Of a stretch of DNA of 64,000 nucleotides, positions 20,959-23,473 are shown piece after piece. The notes beneath the pieces were generated by a model that saw only the letters and a program-made list of their open reading frames with translations, made no database searches and was not told where the DNA came from. Position 1 is the first letter of the stretch. Every line of letters begins with the position of its first letter. Location of the stretch: assembly GCF_018613195.1 (NCBI RefSeq), contig NZ_JAGGQQ010000005.1:401593-465592 (forward strand). The letters run 5' to 3'. A program made the position numbers and the translations under genes. This DNA comes from Bacillus sp. ISL-45. GTDB lineage: Bacteria; Bacillota; Bacilli; Bacillales; Cytobacillaceae.

Positions 20959-20976
20959 ATGAATGGGGTGAGCAAA

Positions 20977-21345
20977 TTGAAGGAGCAGGATGTCTGCCAG
21001 GTCAATTGCGTCCATGACGAAAAAGTGGAACAGATGTCTGCTGAATTGAAAGAACAAAATACTGTTGAAGCCGCAAAAATACTCAAGGCGTTGTCAGATG
21101 AAACTAGGGTTAAAATCGCATACTCACTATATGTAGGCAAAGAACTTTGTGTTTGCGATGTAGCTGCGGTCGTCAATTCGTCCACTGCTACTGCTTCCCA
21201 CCATTTAAGGCTGTTGAAGAATCTTGGTCTCGCTAAATACCGTAAGGAAGGGAAGCATGTTTATTATTCACTGGTGGATGACCATGTGAAGCAATTGATT
21301 CACCTGGCGTTTGAACATCAAAAGGAGTTGGATTTGAATGACTGA
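20977..21345 (+). CDS. cadC: CadC-type ArsR-family metal-sensing repressor
   Basis: The product has 122 residues, the same as plasmid pI258 CadC, with a winged helix. The metal-site cysteines of the CadC subgroup are all present: two in DVCQVNC at the N-terminus and two in ELCVCDVA in the alpha-3 region. The DNA-recognition segment is SSTATASHHLRLLKNLGLAK. I place the start at TTG 20977, where GGGGTGA stands 5 nt upstream and the sequence reads MKEQDVCQVNC; the ATG at 20959 has no ribosome-binding site. It overlaps cadA by 8 bp and presumably represses both genes through the two upstream dyads. Confidence 0.87.
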   Translation: MKEQDVCQVNCVHDEKVEQMSAELKEQNTVEAAKILKALSDETRVKIAYSLYVGKELCVCDVAAVVNSSTATASHHLRLLKNLGLAKYRKEGKHVYYSLVDDHVKQLIHLAFEHQKELDLND

Positions 21346-23473
21346 AGCAGCGCAATCTGGCGCGAAAACAATTTATCGGGTACAGGGCTTCACCTGAGCA
21401 AGCTGTGCCGGAAAGTTCGAAGAGAACGTAAAGCACCTGGATGGTGTTTTTGATGCAAAAGTAAATTTTGGCGCTTCCAAGCTGACTGTTTTCGGTAAAG
21501 CCTCCATTGAGGAACTGGAGCAAGCTGGCGCATTTGAGAACCTGCGGCTTTACCCGGATAAAGCTGAGATTATCCCTGAAAAAAAGAAACCGTTCTGGCA
21601 GGAAAATTCTACGGTATTGATCAGCTTAGTGATGATCATTGCCGCGTATTTTCTTCAGTTTAATTTTGGTGAAGGTAGTTTGCCGGCCATCCTATTATTT
21701 CTGGGCGCGATTATTATAGGTGGTTACTCCCTTTTTAAAAGTGGAATAAAGAATCTTCTAAAGCTCGATTTTGACATGAGGGCACTGATGACTGTTGCGA
21801 TCATCGGGGCTGCCATCATTGGCGAGTGGAGCGAAGGTGCTGTCGTTGTCATATTGTTTGCGATTAGTGAAGTGCTTGAAAGATATTCAATGGATAAGGC
21901 ACGAGCCTCGATCCGTTCATTAATGGATATTGCACCAAAAGAAGCTCTCGTCCGCCGGAATGGCAGGGAATACAGCATCCATGTAAATGAAATAGAAGTC
22001 GGCGACATTATGATTGTAAAACCAGGCGAAAAAATTGCCATGGATGGGGAAGTCGTTTCCGGATTCTCGGCTGTCAACCAGGCGGCGATTACCGGGGAAT
22101 CTGTTCCAGCTGATAAAAGCGTGGGTGATGAGGTGTTTGCCGGCACGCTGAATGGGGAAGGTCTCATCGAGGTTAAAATCACTAAACTGGTCGATGATAC
22201 CACAATCGCGAAAATCATTCACCTTGTAGAAGAGGCACAGGCGGAAAAGGCTCCTTCGCAGGCTTTCGTGGACCGGTTCGCCAAGTATTACACGCCAATT
22301 ATTATCCTTGTCGCATTTTTGGTTGCTATTGTACCGCCACTTCTCTTCGGTGGAGGATGGAGTGAGTGGATTTATCAAGGGCTGGCCGTCCTGGTTGTCG
22401 GCTGTCCGTGTGCCCTGGTCATTTCAACGCCAGTTTCAATTGTGACAGCGATTGGCAACGCCGCTAAACATGGTGTGCTTGTAAAGGGTGGCGTCCACCT
22501 TGAGGAAATGGGCATGCTGAAAGCCGTTGCCTTTGATAAAACTGGGACGCTCACAAAAGGAGTGCCGGCTGTTACTGATTTCAAATTGTTATCTGGTGAA
22601 AATTCAAGCGGTCTTTTTGCAGTAATCGCTGCCCTTGAAAATAAATCACAGCATCCAATTGCTTCTGCTATTATCCGAAAGGCAGACGCAGACACAGTAC
22701 CGTACATGGATAAAGCAATTGAAGATTTTACATCGGTAACCGGTAAAGGATTAAAGGGAACTGTTGACGGGATTGTTTATTATATCGGCAGCCCTAAATA
22801 CCTTGAAGAAATCGTCGAAGGTGGAATTCCTGGTGGGGCTGCAGGAGAAATTTCACGCCTGCAGTCTGAAGGGAAAACAGTCATGGTTGCAGGCAGTGAT
22901 TCTGAAGTACTTGCATTAATCGCGGTTGCAGATGAAGTTAGAGAGTCGAGCAGGGAAGTCGTGCCCCGTCTTCATGAGCTTGGCATTGAAAAGACCATCA
23001 TGCTGACCGGTGACAACAAAGGCACCGCAGCTGCGATTGGCAGCCAGGCAGGCGTGTCCGATATCCAGTCCGATTTGCTTCCTGAAGAGAAGCTGAATTT
23101 CATAAAAACACTACAGAAAAATCACGGAAAAGTTGCGATGGTCGGGGATGGCATCAATGATGCACCTGCACTCGCCGCTGCGACGGTCGGAGTTGCAATG
23201 GGAGGAGCGGGCACCGATACAGCACTCGAAACCGCCGATATCGCCCTGATGGCAGATGACTTGAAAAAGCTGCCGTTCACGATTAATTTGAGCCGCAAAA
23301 CACTCGCAATCATCAAGCAGAACATCGCCTTCTCAATCGGCGTGAAATTGCTGGCGCTGCTGCTGGTCATTCCTGGCTGGCTCACCCTGTGGATCGCAAT
23401 TTTCGCTGATATGGGCGCGACCCTGATTGTCACTCTGAATGGCCTGAGGCTTTTGAGAGTCAAAGATAAATAG
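21338..23473 (+). CDS. cadA: Cd/Zn/Pb-type P1B ATPase with an in-frame TGA at the first CxxC cysteine (candidate selenocysteine)
   Basis: The frame from ATG 21338 (AAGGAG 10 nt upstream, 8-bp overlap with cadC) encodes an HMA metal-binding domain interrupted by TGA at 21395-21397. It then continues without another stop for 691 codons to the ATPase C-terminus. Before the TGA it reads [10 protein letters not shown], after it [12 protein letters not shown]. The TGA is therefore codon 20, exactly where the family has the first Cys of GFTCxxC. The ATPase core is intact: TGES, CPC at 356-358, DKTGTLTKG with Asp400, [13 protein letters not shown]. Without read-through the only start downstream is TTG 21617, which lacks an obvious ribosome-binding site. 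It may be a selenoprotein, a nonsense mutant or a sequencing error. Confidence 0.85.

Follow-up and report, generated by a model that had tools for sequence, protein, structure and literature searches.

Where the function of a selenoprotein is known, it is mostly that of a redox enzyme. Heavy-metal P-type ATPases carrying selenocysteine (Sec) in a UxxC motif are also on record: the consulted parts of the selenoproteome papers already give them, ABB15669 being an example, and those of a 2016 paper count 32 such proteins in 25 organisms. The locus described here lies in Bacillus sp. ISL-45, a Mesobacillus relative whose genome (4.6 Mb) is 99.8% complete, and falls within a window of 64,000 nucleotides, by which we mean the whole stretch of DNA that was analysed. 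Its cadA gene encodes a P1B ATPase of the Cd/Zn family, the in-frame TGA of the gene aligns with a Cys codon of homologues, and Sec machinery is encoded in the same genome. Because Sec-containing UxxC heavy-metal ATPases already stand in the selenoproteome papers, cadA belongs to a known kind of selenoprotein and is not a new one.

Organization of cadC-cadA and position of the in-frame TGA

The features of the locus are collected in Table 1. The ATG of cadA lies inside the 3′ end of cadC, the stop codon of which occupies positions 21343-21345, and the cadC sequence contains an ELCVCDV motif that we take to be the CadC metal site. With the TGA read as Sec, the cadA product matched NCBIfam TIGR01525 with 614.6 bits (cut-off 346.25) and the Cd family TIGR01512 with 537.2 bits (cut-off 313.5), and the Pfam domains HMA, E1-E2_ATPase and Hydrolase were all above cut-off. 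Among the NCBIfam families listed for the product (25 of 26), no Sec-specific model gave a match above cut-off. Past the TGA, the cadA frame stays open for 691 codons, its only stop being the final TAG (23471-23473), while the two alternative frames contain 38 and 53 stops, and both the CPC (22403-22411) and the DKTGT (from 22535) motifs are in frame. The initial annotation had placed the TGA on the first cysteine of the CxxC motif of the HMA domain, with the second cysteine at codon 23, the frame overlapping cadC and all ATPase motifs intact downstream; each of these statements holds in the sequence, and the TGA codon aligns with the first Cys of the CxxC in the solved CadA HMA domain, PDB 2aj0. 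HMA, E1-E2 and HAD domains, CPC, DKTGT and an upstream CadC-like regulator are all present, and cadC-cadA is a predicted operon encoding a putative Cd/Zn/Pb efflux ATPase. Elsewhere in the window, the minus strand of positions 595-663 matches the Listeria sRNA sbrA in Rfam (63.3 bits, cut-off 45).

Table 1 Features of the cadC-cadA locus; positions are those of the window
Feature	Position	Strand	Remarks
cadC	20959..21345	+	ArsR/SmtB metalloregulator; NCBIfam HTH_metalloreg 90.9 bits (cut-off 55); overlaps the cadA start
AAGGAG	21322..21327	+	Likely ribosome binding site of cadA, as read in the sequence
cadA	21338..23473	+	Cd/Zn/Pb-type P1B ATPase; 711 residues with TGA as Sec
TGA	21395..21397	+	Putative Sec codon; codon/residue 20, first position of the HMA metal-binding UxxC (Sec-Ala-Ser-Cys)
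TGT	21404..21406	+	Second cysteine of UxxC; codon/residue 23
HP1, proximal hairpin GUUC-GAAGA-GAAC	21415..21427	+	Loop 21 nt past UGA; 4 bp
HP2, distal hairpin AAAGCACC-UGGAU-GGUGUUUU	21430..21450	+	Loop 40 nt past UGA; 8 bp

Selenocysteine machinery and a second TGA-containing cadA in the same genome

All components searched for were found in the genome of the window, in support of the earlier suggestion of a candidate Sec in a metal-transport ATPase. The tRNA-Sec scored 58.3 bits in Rfam (cut-off 47) and was called tRNA-SeC, anticodon tca, by ARAGORN, while SelB (365.6 bits, cut-off 242.25), SelA (560.4 bits, cut-off 267.9) and SelD (394.9 bits, cut-off 125), the last of which itself carries one in-frame TGA, were equally above threshold. 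Among 14 control genomes, the same searches gave matches above cut-off for tRNA-Sec in five, SelB in two, SelA in one and SelD in two. Matches below cut-off we take to be ordinary tRNAs or related proteins, because the control genomes yield such matches too. Inspection by eye placed an integrase-like frame just after the tRNA-Sec gene (L001 1501-1597 and 1706-2920), which may therefore be an integration site; it also revealed, beside selD in L018, a small Rdx/SelW-like frame on the minus strand (about 1100-1350) whose CxxU motif includes an in-frame TGA.

The genome further encodes a cadA-like paralogue (C12:56844-58943; L103) that is 69% identical to cadA and has one TGA, located at the same UxxC codon and followed by the same hairpins. 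In the CadA tree described below, this paralogue sits in a different part from the window cadA.

Recurrence of the TGA among relatives and co-occurrence with SelA

Related loci were retrieved from named genomes with no condition placed on the codon, and the best 80 of 467 were retained. TGA occupies the position in 73 of the 80 and TGT in the remaining seven, all seven thus encoding Cys and none Trp. The relatives accordingly do not, for the most part, carry TGC or TGT, and the view of the initial annotation that the TGA is no chance event is upheld by its retention in these 73 loci. A further search that admitted only TGA, TGT and TGC found Cys at 39 of 39 non-TGA codons; a locus missed by that search (L155) has TGC at this codon. 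Mesobacillus, Neobacillus, Peribacillus, Cytobacillus, Robertmurraya and Rossellomorea are among the genera with the TGA form. One record with cadA, L025, is titled Chryseobacterium sp. ISL-80; since it shares its SelA coordinates with G272, a genome of the window's genus, the Chryseobacterium name looks wrong.

SelA was above cut-off in 71 of the 71 TGA genomes searched (43 plus 28; L064 was left out, and L033 shares its assembly with L027) and in two of seven Cys genomes (Fisher, 1e-6, kinship ignored). The two Cys-form genomes with SelA are L042 and L069, the former of which is apparently G107 under another handle, as the SelA coordinates of the two are identical; G107 also has a TGA copy. 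An order-wide search of 397 genomes returned 217 matching the N-terminal part of CadA; among the matches listed, 58 genomes, the source genome included, had the TGA form and 68 had stop-free forms only, SelA being above cut-off in 57 of the former and 26 of the latter (Fisher, 3e-14, kinship ignored). The exception, G248, has a TGA-form cadA and no SelA above cut-off (best match 24 bits), nor at a looser threshold. Its TGA-type cadA (L130; G248:C3:2000-8000), which has intact hairpins, is on an 8.7-kb contig and is possibly mobile, or a stray.

In a quickly built tree of 129 of 141 CadA proteins (near-copies dropped, the HMA part excluded, some long branches flagged), at least eight Sec/Cys switches are forced on the starred branches and 14 occur on the best tree. 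Of eight phylogenetically independent pairs, a mean of 4.6 had SelA on the Sec side and none had it on the Cys side, the remaining 3.4 showing no difference (median p 0.06 by sign test). The G248 copy was left out of both analyses, and the co-occurrence of SelA with the putative Sec form, once corrected for kinship, is suggestive only. Of three Cytobacillus plasmid records in RefSeq, two have an annotated CDS that spans the in-frame TGA and the third has the Cys form. Thus, NCBI already treats the Cytobacillus orthologues as full-length, and presumably writes U at their TGA.

Two tandem hairpins follow the TGA

As given in the consulted part of a 2026 review (PMC13188914), bacterial SECIS elements have a loop of 3-9 nt, a stem of 4-16 bp, a G in the first two loop positions (mostly G[G/U]), a spacing of 16-37 nt from UGA to apical loop and a minimum free energy of at most -7.5 kcal/mol. 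The initial annotation had proposed a single hairpin that would fit such rules in a loose form, extended by an outer GTGC/GCAC pair. Its inner hairpin, HP1, is present and folds (-3.5 kcal/mol alone, 3 of 200 shuffles as good), and the flanking A21413-U21429 is able to pair as well. Stem, loop G and a 21-nt spacing agree with the published limits; the loop begins with GA rather than G[G/U], however, and the energy lies above the -7.5 limit. As for the outer pair, its letters are there (21405-21408 and 21433-21436), but the 3′ bases belong to a stronger second hairpin, HP2, and the first base of the pair is A instead of G in 24 of 40 aligned Sec genes. The RNA downstream of the TGA is therefore better described as two tandem hairpins, of which HP2, overlooked before, is the more conserved. 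HP2 agrees with the consensus in loop (UGGAU) and energy (-8.4 kcal/mol alone, 0 of 200 shuffles as good), whereas its 40-nt spacing is beyond 16-37 nt; loop size, stem length and the presence of a loop G are within the limits for both hairpins. Together they reach -12.1 kcal/mol. Folded as one piece with RNAfold, the 66-nt stretch shows no unusual stability (z -0.40; 70 of 200 shuffled sequences did as well), and it is only when folded separately that the hairpins stand out.

Codon use points to the same segment. Among 356 codons ranked over 74 Sec genes (the 73 loci plus the window; residue conserved in 90% or more of the rows; Met and Trp codons excluded), the least synonymous variation was found in five consecutive codons, His-Leu-Asp-Gly-Val, located 13-17 codons past the TGA, which form HP2. 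In rows with the residue concerned, His is written CAC in 70/71, Leu CTG in 74/74, Asp GAT in 73/73, Gly GGT in 73/74 and Val GTT in 71/74. Pairing was evaluated in 40 of the 74 Sec sequences, chosen by eye for diversity and 38 of them distinct: over both hairpins, 93.7% of cells are paired and five pairs have changed on both sides, neither value being reached in 500 shuffles, which ignore kinship, and slid controls gave at most 47.0% paired. The number of further pair types was reached by 22 of the 500 shuffles.

The two hairpins differ in how closely they follow the Sec form. All 93 Sec rows have the complete core of HP1 (five pairs, namely 21413/21429 and the four stem pairs), versus 16 of 46 Cys rows, and that of HP2 (six pairs) is complete in 85 of 93 versus 1 of 46, only 84 of the Sec and 44 of the Cys rows being distinct. 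Adding the poorly kept pair 21414/21428 to HP1 lowers its counts to 24/93 and 2/46, and adding its weakest pair to HP2 gives 76/93 and 1/46. By these counts, HP1 is less diagnostic of the Sec form than HP2. The sole Cys row of 46 with both cores intact is a TGT cadA in a genome with SelA (L165; G474:C1), probably a fossil SECIS left by a recent Sec-to-Cys change; L179 and L169 may represent later stages of such a change.

Homologues outside the order and the SelD genes

A phylum-wide search of 398 genomes, 38 of which had a match, yielded 11 TGA genomes outside the order, with the TGA in a G-x-[ST]-U-x-x-C motif in 11 of 11. In nine of these, the proximal hairpin has a similar loop but is lengthened by a long additional stem, and it is followed by a distal hairpin of the CCCUGG-UGUAA-CCAGGG type, their hairpin values being reached by 3 to 26 of 500 shuffles; of the other two, L212 has Bacillales-type hairpins and L220 another fold. 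The invariant GU in the distal loop of the nine is weak evidence, since GU is also part of a Val codon.

Tandem hairpins were also looked for in SelD genes. A strict motif matched 18 of the 31 SelD loci (16 TGA, 2 Cys), and the 13 unmatched were dropped. In the 16 TGA genes, all from the order, pairing reaches 98.2% in a distal hairpin with a GU[U/A/G] loop at a spacing of 33 (0 of 500 shuffles), and three of its pairs have changed on both sides (3 of 500 shuffles), whereas the proximal hairpin does not rise above shuffles (98 of 500). A general two-hairpin rule is therefore unsupported by SelD. The SelD frame starting near 1530 of L018 likewise shows a TGA and the covarying distal hairpin, its GUU-type loop 33 nt downstream.

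For cadA itself, a composite SECIS can be entertained tentatively, although we lean against it: the distal UGGAU hairpin would be the main target of SelB, and the proximal hairpin would bring it near the ribosome. On that reading, and with the same reserve, the nine homologues outside the order might be regarded as keeping the plan of a long proximal stem plus a distal hairpin. If the composite SECIS is true, searches limited by spacing would miss such elements.

Decoding of the UGA and role of the UxxC motif

At the level of sequence, the TGA is conserved, the Sec machinery complete and SelA co-occurrent, Sec and Cys are exchanged repeatedly, and a conserved, covarying RNA structure decays in the Cys forms. 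These features strongly support recoding of the UGA through SelB and Sec-tRNA, and the codon is very probably read as Sec. In the mechanism that we propose, SelB with Sec-tRNA(Sec) would be recruited by the RNA hairpins just downstream of the UGA, HP1 and HP2 both being candidates for its binding site, and Sec would be inserted at codon 20 to give the UxxC metal site of the N-terminal HMA domain; we infer actual insertion, as well as its purpose, from the comparisons above. The selenolate would then bind a soft metal (Cd, Zn, Pb, perhaps Hg), thereby loading or regulating the pump, and, if selenium were lacking, translation would end after residue 19. Compared with a thiolate, a selenolate in UxxC is expected to be a tighter ligand of soft metals and to ionise at lower pH. 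Homology to the Cys-containing HMA domain makes this ligand role, on balance, the probable one.

The main alternative to the metal-ligand role accepts Sec and regards UxxC as a redox switch, in which a selenenylsulfide would gate metal binding. Sec has a lower pKa than Cys and faster redox exchange, properties that would suit such a switch. The selenoproteome tables, as far as consulted, moreover show UxxC to be common to many thioredoxin-like selenoproteins. The residue pair aligns, however, with the CxxC of the solved CadA HMA domain (2aj0), and no reductases were found among the three neighbouring non-cad frames scanned, which encode RNase Z, a phosphoglycerate-mutase-like protein and a methyltransferase. 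We consider the redox switch unlikely.

The remaining alternatives bear on the recoding itself. The UGA could be a plain or regulated stop, followed by internal reinitiation to make a pump devoid of the HMA domain. HMA domains are generally held dispensable for transport, the genome also encodes a CadA-like pump that matches only from residue 98 onward, and a TTG-started frame of 618 codons is present downstream of the TGA. Yet, over the first 160 columns after the TGA, the only ATG, GTG or TTG codons kept in more than 60% of the 74 Sec rows are ATGs at +141 and +145, which lie within the pump core (the TIGR01525 match begins at residue 147); furthermore, where the TGA is replaced, Cys takes its place and the HMA domain is retained. 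With no conserved start before +141, we rejected reinitiation as very improbable. Less probable still is near-cognate readthrough of the UGA by a Trp or Cys tRNA. Some leaky reading of UGA occurs in Bacilli, and G248 has the TGA form with no SelA above cut-off; against this, the TGA form tracks the presence of SelA, the hairpins decay in Cys forms, and the seven non-TGA loci of the 80-locus set encode Cys in every case and never Trp. Lastly, a nonsense mutation, pseudogene or sequencing error at codon 20, although a single base separates TGA from TGT or TGC, was rejected with near certainty because 73 of the 80 other records, and the paralogue too, have the same TGA; the 691 intact codons and the conservation of the hairpins at the codon level argue likewise against it.

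Comparison with known selenoproteins

Decoding of this UGA as Sec would have consequences beyond the locus. Sec at the metal site of an efflux pump would tie metal resistance to selenium supply. Because the Sec and Cys forms switch repeatedly in cultivable Bacillales, and two Sec copies reside in one genome, cadA offers a tractable system for studying the contribution of selenium to metal handling. Conserved down to the wobble base in the Sec genes that were compared, the two hairpins are also a ready test case for SelB recognition of SECIS outside E. coli.

Among open-licence papers, surveyed by title and the beginning of the abstract, none was found on a Sec-containing CadA in Bacillaceae, and the same literature yielded no experimental work on a Sec heavy-metal ATPase; the consulted part of PMC12013277, on new selenoproteins, names no ATPase. 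Nor did open-licence literature, as consulted, describe the spread in Bacillales or the tandem hairpins, which may thus be in print elsewhere.

In the consulted parts of the published accounts, the Sec-containing UxxC heavy-metal ATPases have the same family and the same UxxC motif as the cadA product, and neither Bacillales nor CadC is mentioned. The Cys form of the domain is represented by the CadA HMA structures 2aj0 and 2aj1, which the product matches with 88 bits over 66 residues, without gaps and with the metal motif at the same position, the difference being CxxC in the structures and UxxC here. A more distant likeness is to NF041115 (UxxU_metal_bind, metal-binding (seleno)protein), an HMA-like family whose name points to Sec in its metal motif; the match is weak (22.5 bits, cut-off 95), and the family, of 74 residues and with UxxU, is not an ATPase, unlike the cadA product. 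To the known kind of selenoprotein, the present analysis adds its spread in Bacillales, the repeated switching between Sec and Cys, a likely fossil SECIS, and tandem hairpins with a canonical-looking loop placed outside the published spacing.
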